From: an uncultured Rhodospirillales bacterium
GTDB taxonomy: Bacteria; Pseudomonadota; Alphaproteobacteria; ATCC43930; CGMCC-115725
DNA: 64,000 nt
Assembly: GCA_903822185.1 (NCBI GenBank)
Contig: CAIJOA010000011.1
Span: forward strand, 806,001-870,000
Direction of reading: 5' to 3'
The translations under genes were made by a program, and so were the position numbers. The notes under the pieces were generated by a model. That model was not told where the DNA came from and did not search any database. It saw only the letters and a program-made list of their open reading frames with translations. Each line of letters opens with the position of its first letter. The stretch's first letter is position 1. Positions 1 through 7,429 of this stretch are shown in pieces.

Positions 1-327
1 GGTTCGGATTCACGGCCGCCGATCCGCAACGTGAACTGGCTCTTGGAATCCGGCGCGCGCCCGGGTTTCGAGCGTCAACCGATCTTCGCCGTGAATAATC
101 TCTATGCGATCTTGAAGGCGCTGCAATCGGGCCTCGGCATCGCGTCCCTGCCCGATTTCATGGAGCAGGAAACTTCGGGTCTCGTTCGCGTCCTGCCCGA
201 TATGCTGGGCGGCGAGTTCGAGGCGTTCTTCGTCTATCCCGAAGAACTGCGCACCTCGAAGCGCATCTCGGTCTTCCGCGACTTCTTGCTGCGCAAAGTC
301 GCGGACGCCAAGAACGGCCTGCCCTAA
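1..327 (+). CDS. LysR-family transcriptional regulator, C-terminal part
   Basis: The frame is open from the first base, so the gene starts outside the window; 108 residues are visible. They match the end of a LysR substrate-binding domain: the stretch NNLYAILKALQSGLGIASLP is the typical effector-domain segment in which the last lobe returns to the hinge, followed by the usual LVRVLP and a closing helix (RISVFRDFLL). The DNA-binding helix-turn-helix is not in view. A gene for a carboxymuconolactone-decarboxylase-like protein converges on it 6 bp away. The target genes cannot be read from the sequence. Confidence 0.85.
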   Translation, partial: GSDSRPPIRNVNWLLESGARPGFERQPIFAVNNLYAILKALQSGLGIASLPDFMEQETSGLVRVLPDMLGGEFEAFFVYPEELRTSKRISVFRDFLLRKVADAKNGLP

Positions 328-333
328 GCCTGT

Positions 334-882
334 TTAGTCGAGCGGACGCGTGCCGTCCGGCGTCGGCACCTCGAAGGCGTTCAGCGTAATCCCGACCATG
401 TTGTAGAAGCCGATCGAGAAGATCAGCTCGATCATCACCGGCTCGCCCAGCACCGCCTTGGCGCGCGCATAGGTCGCCGCGCTCAAGACATTCTTGGTCA
501 TCATCTCGGTCGTGACGTCGTAGATCACCTGCTCGTCCTCGCGGAAGACGGTCGCGGTCTTGCGCGTGCGGATCGCCTCGACGCTTGCGGCGGCAACGCC
601 CAATTCCTGCGCGCGCGGCCCATGCGCCCACCAGGCGAATTGCGCCGACCAATGGCGAATGACGACTAACGTCATCAATTCGAACAGGCGTTTCTCGAGG
701 ATGCCTTTTTTGCGTTGGGCAACGAACAGATCGATGATCGCCGGCCCAATGCCCGGCATCCGGATCCAGACCGAAAACGGCCCACCGAGACCGTTATGCG
801 CGATTACCGTCTGCAGCTTCTTAAGCGCTTCCTGTTGTTCCGGATTGAGATCGCTGACGGTGAGATCGGCGAGACGGCCCAT
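334..882 (-). CDS. Carboxymuconolactone decarboxylase family protein
   Basis: 182 residues from the ATG at 882, preceded by a good ribosome-binding site (GGGGGAAAT). Longer in-frame starts lie upstream, but they add arginine/cysteine-rich sequence of non-coding character. The protein resembles the larger carboxymuconolactone-decarboxylase/AhpD-fold proteins: a helical core with WIRMPGIGPAIIDL, then ELMTLVVIRHWSAQFAWWAH, where the family usually has its active-site or proton-relay region. Here that segment reads SAQFAWWAHG rather than CxxC, so a thiol-disulphide (AhpD-type) role is unlikely. Members often act in aromatic or lactone catabolism, or are of unknown function. Substrate is not assignable. 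Confidence 0.8.
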   Translation of the reverse strand: MGRLADLTVSDLNPEQQEALKKLQTVIAHNGLGGPFSVWIRMPGIGPAIIDLFVAQRKKGILEKRLFELMTLVVIRHWSAQFAWWAHGPRAQELGVAAASVEAIRTRKTATVFREDEQVIYDVTTEMMTKNVLSAATYARAKAVLGEPVMIELIFSIGFYNMVGITLNAFEVPTPDGTRPLD

Positions 883-1042
883 AGCATTTCCCCCAAGACT
901 TCGTGGCTTTCGACTTGGCCGCACGATGCCACAAAGCGTCCCACATCGTCTTGCGGATTCGCAGCGATGCAGAATTTGCATTGGAGGCAGACGGTTTTCC
1001 CGTTGGCGGTGAAAGAATCCAAGACGCATGTTGCGCCTGTCG

Positions 1043-1177
1043 CCGCAAGCAATTGCGGCCTCCGGATTTCCGGTCTCGGCTGCCGGAAAGGAGATCCTTG
1101 GATCTCTTACGTCTCGAAGACGTATTTAGCCTCCCTGTTCAAACTGACCCCGGCATCTTGTCGGGGTTTTTCTTTTT
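1043..1177 (+). ncRNA. Candidate structured small RNA or leader RNA ending in a terminator
   Basis: The 395-bp gap between divergent genes (883-1277) holds five consecutive perfect hairpins: 1043-1058 (CCGCAA/TTGCGG, GCAA loop), 1067-1089 (TTTCCGG/CCGGAAA), 1091-1106 (GAGATCC/GGATCTC), 1108-1124 (TACGTCT/AGACGTA), and a terminator stem at 1147-1167 followed by a T-rich run. Between the fourth hairpin and the terminator is an unpaired stretch containing CCTCCCTG, complementary to Shine-Dalgarno sequences. No convincing protein frame covers it. It could be a free-standing trans-acting sRNA or an attenuator-type leader of the ABC transporter operon starting at 1278. No promoter was confidently located. 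No match to a named RNA family is claimed. Confidence 0.5.
1147..1177 (+). terminator. Rho-independent terminator
   Basis: Stem ACCCCG/CGGGGT with a nine-base loop, followed directly by TTTTTCTTTTT. No + strand protein gene ends upstream of it, so it must terminate either the candidate RNA at 1043-1146 or leader transcription into the operon at 1278. Confidence 0.8.
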
Positions 1178-1277: not shown

Positions 1278-2381
1278 ATGAGCAAACGGCCCATGCGCAA
1301 GACCATCGTCTTGGCCATTCTGCTGACGGCGGCCGCCGTCGGCGCGATGCCGGCGCAGGCCGAGATCGCCGCCATGACACCCGCCTTGGCTCAGGTGGTC
1401 GCCGGTGCGAAGGCCGAAGGCAAGCTTGTCATGCGCTCGACCATCACCATGTTCGGCGGTCCCGAAGGGGCCAAGGTGGCGCAGGACGGCATTAACCGGA
1501 TGTTCGGCACCAACCTGACGATCGAATGGAGCCCCGGACCGGCCTATGGCGCGCTCGCCGCCCTGATCTATCAGGAGATGCAGGCGGGACATGATTCCTC
1601 GACCGACGTCTTCACCTCGACCGCGGTGCAGCTCGCGCCCTATCTCGACAAGAAGATGTTCCGGACGATCGACTGGGTCAGCCTGATGCCCCAGCGGATC
1701 ACGCCCGGCATCGTCGAGGCCGAAGGCCGTGCCCTGCGCCGGTCCACCGCGATGCCCGGCATTCTCTACAACGTCAAAGCCGCGCCATGGGTCAAAGAGA
1801 TCAACACCACCGCCGACCTGTTGAAGCCCCAATATACGGGCAAGTTTTCAACGACGCCGTTCCTCGGCGGGTTCGACGTGATGCTGGCGCCCGATGTTTG
1901 GGGCGTCGAGAAAACCCAGGCCTATATCCGCGAATTTTCCAAGCAACTGGGCGGGCTCGCCGGTTGCGAAGCGACGGATCGCATCGCCTCGGGCGAGGTA
2001 CCGGCGCTGGCCGTCGATTGCAGCGGCGCCGCCCCCAATCGCGCGCAATATCGCGGCAAGGGCGTGCTCGACAATCAGATCATGAGCGACATGGCGCAGC
2101 GCCGTTTCGATTATCTGATGGTGCCGACCCATGCGGCCCATCCCAACGCGGCGATGCTTTACATCCTCTATCTCGTCTCGGTCGAGGGTCAGCAGAAGAT
2201 CATGCGCGATTTCATGGGCGACGATCTTTACGACTTTCCCGAATCCGAAGTGCGCCAGCATGCCGACGCGCTTGCCGCGAAGGGCGTCAAATTTGTCGAT
2301 GTGACGATCGGCTGGTGGCTGTCCCATCCGGGGCTCGATGCCGCCAACATCGAGCTGGCGAAACTCGTGCGTGAAAAATGA
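1278..2381 (+). CDS. ABC transporter periplasmic substrate-binding protein, paralogue 1 of 4
   Basis: 367 residues from the ATG at 1278. A GGAGG lies upstream at a rather long spacing of 13 nt. Residues 1-28 form a Sec signal peptide ending AQA|E, and an N-terminal extension of the frame back to 903 is non-coding in character. The mature protein belongs to the iron(III)/AfuA-like class of extracellular solute-binding proteins. Landmarks shared by all four paralogues are FGGPEGAK (59-66), PGPAYG (86-91), the YQEMQAG segment, a pair of cysteines (GCE and VDC) that could form a disulphide, and the C-terminal LAKLVREK. It delivers an unidentified solute to the permease and ATPase encoded downstream. 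Confidence 0.9.
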   Translation: MSKRPMRKTIVLAILLTAAAVGAMPAQAEIAAMTPALAQVVAGAKAEGKLVMRSTITMFGGPEGAKVAQDGINRMFGTNLTIEWSPGPAYGALAALIYQEMQAGHDSSTDVFTSTAVQLAPYLDKKMFRTIDWVSLMPQRITPGIVEAEGRALRRSTAMPGILYNVKAAPWVKEINTTADLLKPQYTGKFSTTPFLGGFDVMLAPDVWGVEKTQAYIREFSKQLGGLAGCEATDRIASGEVPALAVDCSGAAPNRAQYRGKGVLDNQIMSDMAQRRFDYLMVPTHAAHPNAAMLYILYLVSVEGQQKIMRDFMGDDLYDFPESEVRQHADALAAKGVKFVDVTIGWWLSHPGLDAANIELAKLVREK

Positions 2382-2398
2382 AACAGCGGAAGAGCCAG

Positions 2399-3484
2399 AT
2401 GATGAAGTTTCTTTCGGCGATGGCGGTTGCCTCCCTGGCAATCGTGGCGACGGCCGCCCATGCCGAAACCGTGCCGATGACGCCGGCGCTGGCCAAAGTG
2501 ATCGAGGCCGCCAACAAGGAAGGCGCGATCGCGCTGCGTTCGACCGGCACCGTCTTCGGTGGCGCCGAAGGCGCGAAAGCGGCCGAAATCGCGATCAACC
2601 AGACTTTCGGCACGCATCTGAAAATCGACTGGGTGCCCGGCCCGGCTTATGGCCCGATGGCCGCCATCGTTTATCAGGAAATGCAGGCCGGCCAAAAAGC
2701 ATCGACCGACGTTTATACGACGACGGCCGTGCAGGCGACGCCTTATCTCGACAAGAATCTTTTCCAGAAGATCGACTGGGCCGGCATCATGCCGTCGCGC
2801 ATCAAGCCCGACATGGTCGAAGCCGAAGGGCGGATGCTGCGTTTCCAGACGGTGCTGCCCGGTGTTCTCTACAACGTCAAAGCCGCGCCGTGGGTCAAGG
2901 ACCTCAAGACCACCGCCGACCTGTTGAAGCCGGAATATAAGGGCAAGTTCTATACGACACCGTTCCTCGCCGGCTTCGATGTCCTCCTCGCGCCCGATGT
3001 ATGGGGACCGCAAAAGACCGAAGATTACGTCAAAAAATTCTCGCAGCAGTTGGCCGGACTTGTCGGCTGCGAAGGCAGCGACCGCATCGCCTCGGGCGAG
3101 ATTCCCGCGCTTGCCTTCGATTGCAGCGGCGGCGCCGGCAACCGCATCCAGTATCGCGGCAAAGGCGTCTTCGATAACAAGATTCTGAGTGACATGGCGC
3201 AGCGGCGCGAGGATTACCTCGCCATCCCGACCAACGCGCCCAATCCGAACGCGGCGATCCTTTATACACTCTACATGATGACGCATGAGGGCCAAGAAAA
3301 GCTGGTCTTCGATATCTTCGGCGGCGACCTCTACGACTTCCCGGATTCGCACATCCACAAGGAAGTCAGCGATGCCGAAGCCAAGGGCATCAAATTCATC
3401 GACGTCACCATCGATTGGTGGCGGTCCCACCCCAACCTCGACGCGCAGAACAATGCGCTGGCCAAGCTCGTACGGGAGAAGTGA
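2399..3484 (+). CDS. ABC transporter periplasmic substrate-binding protein, paralogue 2 of 4
   Basis: 361 residues. The frame is open from an ATG at 2378 that overlaps the previous stop, but the start at 2399 has a GGAAGAG ribosome-binding site at good spacing and gives a compact signal peptide (cleavage AHA|ET), so it is preferred. It shares the FGG-EGAK, PGPAYGP, YNVKAAPWVK, FYTTPFL and WWRSHPNLD blocks with its neighbours and clearly arose by tandem duplication. The same two cysteines are kept (VGCE and FDCSG). Differences cluster between the conserved blocks, as expected if ligand preference differs. It sits 17 nt after paralogue 1 and 5 nt before paralogue 3, so co-transcription is near certain. 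Confidence 0.9.
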   Translation: MMKFLSAMAVASLAIVATAAHAETVPMTPALAKVIEAANKEGAIALRSTGTVFGGAEGAKAAEIAINQTFGTHLKIDWVPGPAYGPMAAIVYQEMQAGQKASTDVYTTTAVQATPYLDKNLFQKIDWAGIMPSRIKPDMVEAEGRMLRFQTVLPGVLYNVKAAPWVKDLKTTADLLKPEYKGKFYTTPFLAGFDVLLAPDVWGPQKTEDYVKKFSQQLAGLVGCEGSDRIASGEIPALAFDCSGGAGNRIQYRGKGVFDNKILSDMAQRREDYLAIPTNAPNPNAAILYTLYMMTHEGQEKLVFDIFGGDLYDFPDSHIHKEVSDAEAKGIKFIDVTIDWWRSHPNLDAQNNALAKLVREK

Positions 3485-3489
3485 GTAAA

Positions 3490-4584
3490 ATGAATCGGTT
3501 TCTTGCGACGACGTTCGCCGCGGCGGCGGTCTTCGGCTTGTGTTTCAACGGCGCAGCGCACGCCGACACGATCGAGATGACACCGCAACTCAAAGAGATC
3601 ATCGCCGGCGCGAATAAAGAAGCAAAGCTGACCGTCCGCTGGACCAACAACATCTTTGGTGGCCCGGAAGGCGCGAAGGTTGCGGAAGAGGCGATCAACC
3701 GCATGTTCGGCACCAAGATCAGCGTCGAATGGGCGCCGGGTCCGGCCTATGGACCGCTCGCTGCGATGCTCTACCAGGAAATGCAGGCAGGACTGGCCGC
3801 GACCTCCGACATCTATATCGCCACGGCGGTGCAAGCGACGCCGTATCTGCAGAAGAATCTGTTCCGTACGATTGACTGGGTTTCGATCATGCCGTCGCGC
3901 ATCACGCCGGTGATGGTCGAAGGCGAAGGCCGCGCGATCCGCATCGCCACCAACCTGCCGGGCATCGTCTATAATATGAAGACGGCCGCCTGGGTCGCCA
4001 ACGTGCAGACCAGCGCCGATCTGTTGAAGCCCGAGGCCAAAGGTCATTTTTATACGACGCCGTTCCTCGGCGGCTTCGACGTGCTGCTCGCGCCCGATGT
4101 ATGGGGCGTCGAGAAGACGACCGAGTATGTGAAGAAGTTATCGACGCAGGTGGCCGGGCTTGCCGGCTGCGAGGCGACGACACGCATCGCCGCCGGCGAA
4201 ATTCCGGCGCTGGCCATCGATTGCGGCGGCGGCATTCCCAACCGTCTCGAATATCGCGGCAAAGGCATCCTCGCCAATCAGGTCATGAGCGACATGGTGC
4301 AGAAGCGGTATAACTATCTGTCGGTTCTGACCCACGCGCCGCACCCGAACGCGGCCACGCTCTACATCCTCTACATCATGTCCAAGGAAGGGCAGGAGAA
4401 GATGATGTGGGACATTCAGGGAACCGACCTTGCCGACTTCCCGGATTCGCACATGAAGCACGAGTTCGAGACAGTCGAAGCGCGCGGCGGCAAGCCGGTC
4501 GATGTCTCGATCGCCTGGTGGCGCTCGCATCCCGGCCTCGAAGCCGCCAACGCCGAACTGGCAAAGCTCGTCCGCGAGAAATAA
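3490..4584 (+). CDS. ABC transporter periplasmic substrate-binding protein, paralogue 3 of 4
   Basis: 364 residues from the ATG at 3490; the ribosome-binding site (GGGAGAAG) lies in the last codons of the preceding gene, implying coupled translation. The signal peptide ends AHA|D around residue 25. It keeps the family blocks FGGPEGAK, PGPAYGPLAA, FYTTPFLGGFDVLLAPDVWG and WWRSHPGLEA. It departs most from the others in the ligand-side segment: VRWTNN replaces LRSTGT/MRSTIT, and YNMKTAAWVAN replaces YNVKAAPWVK. That makes it a candidate for altered specificity. The substrate is unknown. Confidence 0.9.
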   Translation: MNRFLATTFAAAAVFGLCFNGAAHADTIEMTPQLKEIIAGANKEAKLTVRWTNNIFGGPEGAKVAEEAINRMFGTKISVEWAPGPAYGPLAAMLYQEMQAGLAATSDIYIATAVQATPYLQKNLFRTIDWVSIMPSRITPVMVEGEGRAIRIATNLPGIVYNMKTAAWVANVQTSADLLKPEAKGHFYTTPFLGGFDVLLAPDVWGVEKTTEYVKKLSTQVAGLAGCEATTRIAAGEIPALAIDCGGGIPNRLEYRGKGILANQVMSDMVQKRYNYLSVLTHAPHPNAATLYILYIMSKEGQEKMMWDIQGTDLADFPDSHMKHEFETVEARGGKPVDVSIAWWRSHPGLEAANAELAKLVREK

Positions 4585-4589
4585 GTCCG

Positions 4590-5666
4590 ATGCGAGGGAT
4601 CGTTGCCGTCGCGGCGCTGACACTATTCGGAATCGGCGCCGCCGAGGCGGAGACAGTGACGATCAATCCCGCGCTCACCAAAGTGATCGAAGGCGCAAAG
4701 GCCGAGGGTGCCTTGTCGTTGCGATCGACTGCCGCTCTATTCGCCGGCGCCGGCGGCGCAAAGCGCGCGCAGGACGCCATCAACAAGGCCTTCGGCACGA
4801 AGCTCGTCATCGAATGGACGCCTGGCCCGGCCTACGGTCCTCTCGCTGCGATTCTCCATCAAGAACTCCAAGCAGGACAGCCGGCTTCGACCGATGTCTA
4901 TACGGCGTCAGCGGTGCAGATCACGGGCTATCTCGACAAGGGACTATTCCAAAAAGTCGATTGGCCAAACCTTTTGCCCGACCGCGTGACGCCGGCGATG
5001 GTCGAGGGCGAAGGCCGCGCCCTACGTTTCCAAACCGTGCTGCAAGGAATTTTGTACAACGTAAAGGCCGCGCCGTGGGCCGCCGACATCAACACGATCG
5101 CCGATTTTTTGAAGCCCCAATACAAAGGCAAGTTCTACACGACGCCTTTCCTCAGCGGCTTCGATGTGCTGCTGGCTGACGATGTCTGGGGCAAGCCCAA
5201 GACCGAAGCATTTGTTCGCGAATATGCGCAACCGATCGCCGGGCTTGCCGGCTGCGAGGCAAGCGACCGGGTGGCCTCGGGTGAAATTCCGGCATTATTC
5301 TCCTGCACTGGCGGCTCGACCCGGCGGGAGGAATTTCGCGACAAAGGCATCATCGACATTCATATCGTGTCGGACTTGGCGCAAAAACGCGAAAATTACA
5401 TGGCCATTCCCGCCAACGCGCCGCATCCCAATGCAGCGATTCTTTACTCGCTTTACATGATGACGCACGATGGCCAGGAAGACCTCATCTACGATATTAT
5501 CGGCAACGATCTATATGATTTCCCGGACTCCCATGTTCGTCGTGAAGTTAGTAGGCTCGAAGCCAACGGCGTGAAGTTCATCGATGTAACGATCGATTGG
5601 TGGCGCGCTCATCCCGGCCTCGACGAGGCCAATACGGCGCTCGCCAAATTGGTGCGCGAGAAATAG
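4590..5666 (+). CDS. ABC transporter periplasmic substrate-binding protein, paralogue 4 of 4
   Basis: 358 residues from the ATG at 4590, 5 nt after paralogue 3. It has a short signal peptide (cleavage near AEA|E, residue 20). The family blocks are kept, with distinct variants: FAGAGGAK instead of FGGPEGAK, HQELQAG instead of YQEMQAG, and ALFSCTGGSTRREEF instead of the DCSGG-NR segment. The cysteine pair itself is retained. This is the most diverged copy and lies next to the permease, 11 nt upstream of its GTG start. Tandem duplication is evident; function as a solute receptor is inferred from the family and the operon. Confidence 0.9.
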   Translation: MRGIVAVAALTLFGIGAAEAETVTINPALTKVIEGAKAEGALSLRSTAALFAGAGGAKRAQDAINKAFGTKLVIEWTPGPAYGPLAAILHQELQAGQPASTDVYTASAVQITGYLDKGLFQKVDWPNLLPDRVTPAMVEGEGRALRFQTVLQGILYNVKAAPWAADINTIADFLKPQYKGKFYTTPFLSGFDVLLADDVWGKPKTEAFVREYAQPIAGLAGCEASDRVASGEIPALFSCTGGSTRREEFRDKGIIDIHIVSDLAQKRENYMAIPANAPHPNAAILYSLYMMTHDGQEDLIYDIIGNDLYDFPDSHVRREVSRLEANGVKFIDVTIDWWRAHPGLDEANTALAKLVREK

Positions 5667-5677
5667 GGAGTGTACGG

Positions 5678-7429
5678 GTGGCGACTTTAGCCGCTGAGCA
5701 ACCGGTTGAGCCGCCCCGCGTGCGTGGCTTCGACTTCGTCCCCGGTGGACTGCTCGGCCTGACCATCTTTGCGACCGGCGCGGTGCTGGTGCTGGTTTCG
5801 ATCGTTCTCTGGCTGAGCTTCACCGAAGGCACGCCCGGCGATCCGGTCCTCGTTTATACGCTCGATCATTACCGCGCCATGTTCGGGGATGGCTTTACCT
5901 ATCGCGTCCTCTGGAACACGGTGCTGTTCTCGGCCGTCACGACAACGACCGCCTTCGCCCTAGCCTTGCCGATGGCCTGGCTGATGGAGCGAACGGATTT
6001 TCCGGGTAAGCCGATCGTCTTCACGATGATGACGCTGGCGCTGCTGATCCCCAGCTTTGCCGTGTCGCTGGGCTGGGTGTTTCTGCTGCATCCGAAGATT
6101 GGCCTGATCAATCAGGGCCTGATGCACGTCTTCAATCTCGAGAACGCGCCCTTCGATGTCTCGAACATCTTTTCGATGGGCGTGATCGAGGGCATGAACC
6201 TGACGCCGCTCGCCTTCATCATGACGGCAGTGGTGCTGCGCTCGATGGACCCGGCGCTGGAAGAAGCGGCGGCGATCAGCGGCGCGAAACCCTGGCAGGC
6301 GGTGCTGCGCGTCACGCTGCGCGTCCTCATGCCCGGCCTTCTGGCGGCGGCAATCTATATCGCGACAATCGGCTTCGCCGCCTTCGACGTGCCGGCGATC
6401 CTCGGCCTGACGCGGCGTATCTTCACCTTTTCGACCTATGTGTTCTGGGTGCTGACGCCATCGGAAGGCGCGCCGGAATACGGCAATGTCGCCACGCTCA
6501 GCGTCATTATGGTGGTCCTCGCCGCGTTTCTCAGTTGGGCTTATCGTAGGGCACAGCGTCAGGCGCCGAAATATGCCGTCGTCACCGGCAAGGCCTATCG
6601 CCCGCGCATATCGAAACTCGGCAAATGGCGCAGCTTGGCGATCCTGTTCGTCGTCGGTTACTTCATCGTCTCGCAATTGCTGCCGCTGATCATGCTCGCC
6701 TGGGCGTCGTTGCTGCCGTATCTGCAGACGCCGTCGCTGCAGGCGTTGGAATCGATCACCACGCGCAACTTCGTCAATCTGCCTAAGGAACTGGTTTGGC
6801 GTGCCGGCACTAACACCGCGATCCTCATGGTGCTGGTGCCGACGATCACGCTGATCCTCAGCGTCGCGGTGTCGTGGGTCGTCCTACGCACCAAGATTAA
6901 AGGCCGCGGCTGGTTCGATTTCCTCGCCTTCCTGCCGCTCGCCATTCCGGCGATCGTCTTCAGCGTCGCGGCGCTGCTGCTCGCGCTGTTCGTGCTGCGC
7001 CGTTACATCCCGATCTACGGCACGATTTGGATTCTGGTGCTGGTCTATTCGGTGGCGCGGCTCAGCTACGGCACACGCATGACCAATTCGGCGCTCATCC
7101 AGATTCATCCCGAGTTGGAAGAATCCGCCAAGGTCTGCGGCGCTTCGACCGGCAATATCCTGCGGCGCATCCTGTTGCCGCTGATGGGCCCCAGCCTCGC
7201 CTATGCCTGGATCTGGATCGCGCTGCTGACCTATCGCGAATTGACCCTGCCGGTAGTCATCTCCACCAGCAGCAACCTGCCGTTCTCCTATTTGGTGTGG
7301 GGATTCGTGCAGGCTTCGGCTTATGGTTCGGCATCCGCGGCGGCATTGTTGATGCTCTGCTTGATGCTGCCGTTCCTGCTATTGTATTGGTTCGTTGCAC
7401 GCCGCGCCGGAATGATCGCGCCGCGCTGA
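5678..7429 (+). CDS. ABC transporter permease, fused tandem-domain (FbpB/ThiP-type)
   Basis: 583 residues from a GTG at 5678 with AGGGAG seven bases upstream. The protein carries two binding-protein-dependent permease domains in one chain, roughly residues 60-290 and 370-575. Each has its cytoplasmic EAA loop: EEAAAISGAKPWQAV near residue 194 and LEESAKVCGASTGNI near residue 480. These are the contact sites for the ATPase dimer. This double-length layout is that of the Fe3+/thiamine/2-aminoethylphosphonate-type importers. Being a fusion, one polypeptide forms the whole membrane channel, and it must serve all four binding proteins encoded upstream because no other permease is present. Confidence 0.93.
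   Translation: MATLAAEQPVEPPRVRGFDFVPGGLLGLTIFATGAVLVLVSIVLWLSFTEGTPGDPVLVYTLDHYRAMFGDGFTYRVLWNTVLFSAVTTTTAFALALPMAWLMERTDFPGKPIVFTMMTLALLIPSFAVSLGWVFLLHPKIGLINQGLMHVFNLENAPFDVSNIFSMGVIEGMNLTPLAFIMTAVVLRSMDPALEEAAAISGAKPWQAVLRVTLRVLMPGLLAAAIYIATIGFAAFDVPAILGLTRRIFTFSTYVFWVLTPSEGAPEYGNVATLSVIMVVLAAFLSWAYRRAQRQAPKYAVVTGKAYRPRISKLGKWRSLAILFVVGYFIVSQLLPLIMLAWASLLPYLQTPSLQALESITTRNFVNLPKELVWRAGTNTAILMVLVPTITLILSVAVSWVVLRTKIKGRGWFDFLAFLPLAIPAIVFSVAALLLALFVLRRYIPIYGTIWILVLVYSVARLSYGTRMTNSALIQIHPELEESAKVCGASTGNILRRILLPLMGPSLAYAWIWIALLTYRELTLPVVISTSSNLPFSYLVWGFVQASAYGSASAAALLMLCLMLPFLLLYWFVARRAGMIAPR

Follow-up and report, generated by a model that had tools for sequence, protein, structure and literature searches.

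The AbcR small RNAs, the LysR-type regulator LsrB/VtlR and small RNAs with anti-Shine-Dalgarno motifs are each already known in Rhizobiales. AbcR RNAs, which are described as occurring throughout that order (PMC7486931), show CUCCCA in the loop of a hairpin and have another anti-Shine-Dalgarno motif between hairpins (PMC5461406). VtlR directly activates abcR1 in A. tumefaciens (PMC7486931), and in S. meliloti the abcR1 promoter (PabcR1) is bound by LsrB at a box located at -61 to -49 (PMC8844928). LsrB has been described as unique to Rhizobiales (PMC11975290), and high synteny across alphaproteobacteria has also been mentioned (PMC8844928). In Caulobacter, where SisA-D correspond to mmgR/ar8, pairing of the anti-Shine-Dalgarno type has been shown for SisA (PMC12559287). 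A further family, SmelC671, described in Rhizobiales only, presents a single-stranded CUCCCUGU between hairpins, the last of which is the terminator (PMC3927594), and is by this description comparable to the RNA considered here.

The DNA analysed (hereafter the window) is a 64,000-nucleotide stretch from an uncultured Rhodospirillales bacterium, in which a first-pass annotation had placed an RNA with five stems and a T-tract terminator ahead of a transporter operon. All of these elements were located at 1042-1177 (Table 1), the terminator being followed by a U-rich tail, and the region 1030-1190 folds with a minimum free energy of -62.2 kcal/mol, compared with a mean of -47.7 kcal/mol for shuffled sequences (z = -3.8; none of 200 shuffles was as good). 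The accompanying claim that no plus-strand protein gene is available to be terminated was borne out as well, as none is confirmed to end there: lysR stops at 327 and the following gene lies on the minus strand. A mechanical plus-strand open reading frame (903-2381) spans the RNA region, and the binding-protein gene probably starts at a signal-peptide ATG at 1278. The unpaired linker, said to be complementary to ribosome-binding sites, contains the seed CCUCCC, with which GGGAGG pairs perfectly. Because the LsrB site of S. meliloti abcR1 lies at -61 to -49, the start of the RNA would fall near 1030.

Table 1. Features of the lysR-small RNA region (window coordinates)
Feature	Position	Strand	Remarks
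lysR, 3' part (LsrB/VtlR-type LysR regulator)	1..327	+	HTH_1 and LysR_substrate domains
Gene between lysR and the RNA	334..882	-	seen at this place in this genus only (window and same-genus genome G001)
Inverted repeat ATGCAGAATTTGCAT	967..981	+	ATGC and GCAT around AGAATTT; predicted LysR (LsrB/VtlR) binding box
Predicted small RNA	1030..1177	+	5' end predicted; 3' end at the terminator T-tract
Hairpin 1	1042..1059	+	GCCGCAA/UUGCGGC; conservation weak
Hairpin 2	1067..1089	+	UUUCCGG/CCGGAAA; structure kept, sequence variable
Hairpin 3	1091..1106	+	GAGAUC/GAUCUC; covarying
Hairpin 4	1108..1124	+	UACGUCU/AGACGUA; stem invariant
Anti-Shine-Dalgarno seed CCUCCCUG	1130..1137	+	in single-stranded linker 1125-1146; invariant in alignment A2
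Intrinsic terminator	hairpin 1147-1167, then T-rich tract to 1177	+	nine covarying pairs

A DNA search of relatives yielded matches within the genus (E 5e-15), in numerous genomes of its family and in the neighbouring family, and homologues of the RNA also occur elsewhere in the order Rhodospirillales. Their invariant core reads CGUCUC-nn-AGACGU-GAAGCCUCCCUGUU, and a scan of named alphaproteobacterial genomes with this pattern returned at least 119 stretches; among the matches listed are Azospirillum, Roseomonas and its relatives, Reyranella, Thalassospira, Kiloniella, Magnetovibrio, Nisaea, Tagaea, Caedibacter-like bacteria and many metagenome-assembled genomes (MAGs), so that the known spread includes Rhodospirillales, Acetobacteraceae, Azospirillum, Reyranella, Thalassospira and relatives. 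A covariance model (R1) built from 43 sequences matches 192 of 385 sampled alphaproteobacterial genomes at E <= 0.01; since counts at this threshold take in some ar8 paralogues (one mmgR copy of the window's own genome matched at 3e-4), the stricter count of about 130 genomes at E < 1e-9 is given alongside. The predicted RNAs form a large alphaproteobacterial group that is unrecognised by Rfam.

Among these homologues, both hairpin 3 and the terminator covary. When RNAalifold was applied to the first alignment, these two elements were misaligned and no covariation was seen; a structure set by hand, together with model R1 and refitting, remedied this. The resulting alignment of 101 distinct sequences was fitted to the structure and favours it; standard pairs fill 97.0% of its pair cells, double changes occur in 15 of the 21 pairs, and the covariation score of 0.572 compares with 0.165 after shuffling (none of 500 shuffles reached 0.572) and with 0.16 or less for slid versions. 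Double-sided changes affect every pair of the hairpin 3 main helix (5/5; 96.8% of cells paired) and of the terminator helix (9/9; 96.5%). Given the effect size and the slid controls, chance covariation is unlikely despite the structure-fitted alignment. The linker and hairpin 4 show almost no variation; hairpin 4 for this reason contributes no covariation evidence and is conserved at the level of sequence. Hairpins 3 and 4 and the terminator are present throughout the family, and hairpin 2 retains its structure in relatives (mean z -1.84; 80% below -1). The five-stem description holds for the window, with the qualification that in relatives the structure of hairpin 1 is weakly kept (mean z -0.5).

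The loop of hairpin 4 is CUCCCA in typical relatives (149 of 170 carry the tri-nucleotide that yields this motif), compared with CUCGAA in the window and CUCUAA in the same-genus genome; with the loop motif lost, the window RNA keeps the linker seed only. In two Minwuia MAGs (L038:4417-4576 and L054:7414-7573), a second CGCCTCCCTGTTCAGCAATG immediately precedes the RNA core, as though through a duplication of the seed.

Conserved neighbours of the RNA lie on its upstream side. The best PDB match of the window LysR is 9hh1 (E 3e-94), an entry recorded as a LysR family regulator and presumably Agrobacterium LsrB. Directly upstream of lysR, outside the window, is trxB (L260, 4443-5411), encoding a thioredoxin reductase (TIGR01292). 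Of 194 loci, 147 have a LysR gene upstream of the RNA on the same strand, usually at 134-450 bp from the core, and trxB precedes LysR in 89. The count includes truncated contigs, to which many of the loci without LysR belong. Independent searches with the LysR protein and with R1 gave adjoining places in 40 genomes, as counted from the listed places. The minus-strand gene at 334-882 gave no Pfam match, and its tblastn matches are restricted to L001/L230/L260 and L006/L261.

The stretch between these genes and the RNA contains a conserved palindrome. Of 166 unique loci, 97 have an exact ATGC-N7-GCAT within the 330 bases before the core, where 0.6 would be expected, and these copies cluster 100-200 bases ahead of the core. 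In the same 166 upstream regions, the N5, N6 and N8 spacings of this repeat remained at background level. The pattern agrees with the generic LysR motif T-N11-A. At three loci (L041 from Thalassospira, L137 and L139) two copies of the RNA stand about 370 bp apart, each with one box, an arrangement that recalls AbcR1/AbcR2.

The first-pass annotation offered two readings, a small RNA of the CUCC-motif type and a leader of the binding-protein operon that responds to a ligand or protein. Covariation, conservation across the class and the conserved regulator and DNA box all speak strongly for the former. As a leader, the RNA would act in cis as an attenuator of the binding-protein/ABC-transporter operon, with ligand-dependent termination at 1177. 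It does lie about 100 bp upstream of that operon on the same strand with a terminator at its end, and the arrangement recurs in the same-genus genome. However, that genome is the only one to share the operon; in nearly all other homologues the downstream genes differ (the largest downstream cluster comprises 11 loci), while the upstream trxB-lysR neighbours are conserved. Moreover, a strong terminator closes the RNA ahead of the operon start codon, what is conserved in the core is its sequence, with the anti-Shine-Dalgarno linker left free, and it showed no alternative antiterminator. Pairing of the linker with the start region of the first binding-protein gene is predicted to be weak (-10.2 kcal/mol), by which measure the adjacent operon would not be a specially good target. 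The leader reading is considered highly improbable and was discarded, as no downstream gene is conserved among homologues; the locus is better described as a predicted, conserved small-RNA gene. The operon itself begins with four consecutive paralogous solute-binding protein genes (1278-5666), followed by a two-domain ABC permease gene (5597-7429).

The identity of this small RNA was compared with described families. No match above any Rfam family cut-off was obtained across the entire 64-kb window, and the best sub-threshold matches in 900-1400 were to SorX (26.5 bits against a cut-off of 46.6; E 2.6e-4) and mmgR (20.4 against 41). Orthology to SorX (RF02784), the Rhodobacter stress RNA, would accord with this best Rfam similarity, with the many places across the class matched by both the SorX and R1 models, and with the CCUCCCUGUU linker that stands immediately ahead of the terminator in SorX and SorY (RF02651) of Rhodobacterales as in the window. 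Membership was nevertheless rejected on score. In addition, the top-scoring SorX places in Rhodobacter-like genomes (family f24) lack LysR and TrxB nearby, whereas a lower-scoring RNA is found behind LysR (L262, L265), for which reason SorX proper is more probably paralogous, located elsewhere in the genomes examined than in the LysR slot. SorX proper derives from an mRNA 3' end. The Paracoccus RNA behind LysR scores 52.6 bits with SorX (above cut-off) and 57.7 with SorY (below cut-off). Overall, an orthologous relationship to SorX appears unlikely.

A divergent member of mmgR/ar8 (RF00519) is likewise a very unlikely identity. The general plan agrees, with a hairpin, a CCUCCCU linker, AAACUU and a terminator, and sub-threshold mmgR scores rise from that of the window RNA to as much as 28.8 bits in relatives and 40.6 in Tistrella. 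Against this, the same genome holds four separate ar8 copies above the cut-off (43.6-61.8 bits), the ar8 10-mer UUUCCUCCCU is absent from the window RNA, which has UUUAGCCUCCCU instead, and ar8 has been reported to be linked to FGase (PMC12559287), unlike the synteny with LysR seen here. The low score and the four true copies elsewhere led to rejection of mmgR membership. An RNA-like element of the same genome (G000, C17:100012-100086, minus strand; locus L172; SorX model 29.6 bits) also has AGCCTCCCTGTTAGCG and a terminator, and is possibly one more anti-Shine-Dalgarno RNA in addition to the window RNA and the four mmgR copies. As for BjrC1505 (RF02356), R1 matches the 3' part of the BjrC1505 RNA in L271 (28 bits), but that family's model is longer, differs in its 5' part and gives no match to the window RNA. 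In the genome family to which L271 and L270 belong, three tandem RNAs lie behind trxB-lysR (L271:10637-11246 and L270:3984-4578), some of them with several CUCCCA-loop hairpins; the BjrC1505 match in L271 is about 8.5 kb away.

Taken together, the RNA is quite probably a trans-acting anti-Shine-Dalgarno small RNA of about 150 nt, activated by LsrB/VtlR and AbcR-like in its action. By analogy with the AbcR literature, its expression is probably turned on by the redox-type LysR protein whose gene lies close by, and the RNA can probably silence nutrient-transporter genes by masking their ribosome-binding sites. In such a mechanism, the LsrB/VtlR-type protein from the upstream trxB-lysR unit would bind ATGC-N7-GCAT at 967-981 and activate transcription from about 1030, and RNA polymerase would halt at the terminator (1147-1177). 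For LsrB, peroxide or thiol stress has been proposed as the signal. Stable hairpins would then display the single-stranded CCUCCCUG(UU) linker, to which most relatives add the CUCCCA loop, and these segments would pair, probably with Hfq, with GGGAGG-type ribosome-binding sites. Translation of many mRNAs would thereby be repressed, notably those for ABC-transporter substrate-binding proteins and catabolic enzymes. Transcription is a prediction from the locus, and LysR activation, Hfq dependence and translational repression are predicted from AbcR.

Candidate targets were examined in 0.86 Mb of the genome (827 genes called with a home-made gene caller), in a test devised after the first matches had been noticed. 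GGGAGG precedes ATG at 238 places in the genome compared with 21 for the reversed pattern, which identifies it as a native strong ribosome site; AAGGAG was dropped as a control site because it was too near background. Signal-peptide proteins of binding-protein size account for 11 of 39 genes with GGGAGG sites and 84 of 788 others (p = 0.003), as against 0-13% for other ribosome-site types, and a broader test with GGGAG gave 21/102 versus 53/725 for the same protein class (p = 7e-5). Pfam binding proteins were found in 10 of the 39 (eight NMT1, one Peripla_BP_6 and one TctC), while among 98 random genes these three families had fewer than two members each, with about five binding proteins recognised by eye. 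Candidate target genes for binding proteins with GGGAGG sites include two of the NMT1 type (G000, C18:28006 and C48:148766) and one of the LivK type (C49:39816). The longer complementarity ACAGGGAGG occurs before seven start codons and the reversed pattern before none; these sites are not evidence by themselves, because 3.7 are expected given the 238 GGGAGG sites and the ACA excess before GGGAGG is not significant. The seven genes include three for binding proteins and one for a PhaB-like reductase, with duplex energies of -18 to -23 kcal/mol. The four ar8 RNAs of the same genome bear a similar CCUCCC seed. The binding-protein excess at GGGAGG sites is supporting rather than decisive evidence for targets of this RNA.

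These results indicate that modules of this kind are also present in Rhodospirillales, Acetobacteraceae, Azospirillum and further groups, with a DNA box that is strongly conserved. No paper joining AbcR with Rhodospirillales was found in the open-access literature, and an earlier description is possible. There is about an even chance that most Alphaproteobacteria inherited a trxB-lysR-small RNA module from their ancestor, that the RNA in it then diverged far enough in sequence to go by separate names or none, and that some phages carry copies of the core. If so, AbcR/ar15 in Rhizobiales, the SorX/SorY-like RNAs in Rhodobacterales and the nameless group of the window RNA would be diverged versions of one module RNA. 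The results also suggest that several alphaproteobacterial small-RNA families are one lineage. Regulator, box and RNA are defined, and together with the candidate targets (nutrient uptake linked with thiol redox state) they could be tested in culturable bacteria, for instance Azospirillum or Roseomonas.

Viral contigs from IMG/VR (L154:2927 and L163:6979, and also L156, L158 and L161) contain the core CGTCTCCCAGACG, then AAGCCTCCCTGTT and a terminator, without lysR. In L154 the core lies between a DnaB-like helicase gene and a terminase gene, and in L163 just ahead of terminase and portal genes. Phages may accordingly encode copies of the host small-RNA core, and copies beside packaging genes could perhaps manipulate the host network.

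Among described systems, AbcR1/AbcR2 (ar15, RF02345) stand closest, in the same slot behind trxB-lysR (lsrB/vtlR), into which one genus-specific minus-strand gene is interposed in the window. In Sinorhizobium meliloti (pSymB), Rhizobium leguminosarum and Shinella, LysR, 47-49% identical to that of the window, is followed by two ar15 RNAs, with box-like repeats ahead of the first; trxB is annotated before lysR in the S. meliloti and R. leguminosarum records. Membership in ar15 itself was excluded on score, as the covariance search of 900-1400 gave no match at E <= 10 (membership cut-off 40 bits), whereas the same library detects the rhizobial ar15 RNAs at 97-127 bits. The window RNA is AbcR-like in its predicted ATGC-N7-GCAT-like box, its anti-Shine-Dalgarno linker and its terminator, and tandem copies occur in its family in Thalassospira as they do for AbcR1/AbcR2 in Rhizobiales. 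It differs in its hairpins 2 and 3, which are extra relative to AbcR, in the loop motif M1 (CUCCCA), found in most of its relatives but replaced in the window, and in the linker motif M2 (GUUCCC/UUCCCCUC), in place of which the window linker reads CCUCCCUGUUC and includes CCUCCCUGUU. The explanation that fits the whole best, and is held with good confidence, is an RNA family distinct from AbcR that occupies the same slot and would work in an AbcR-like manner.
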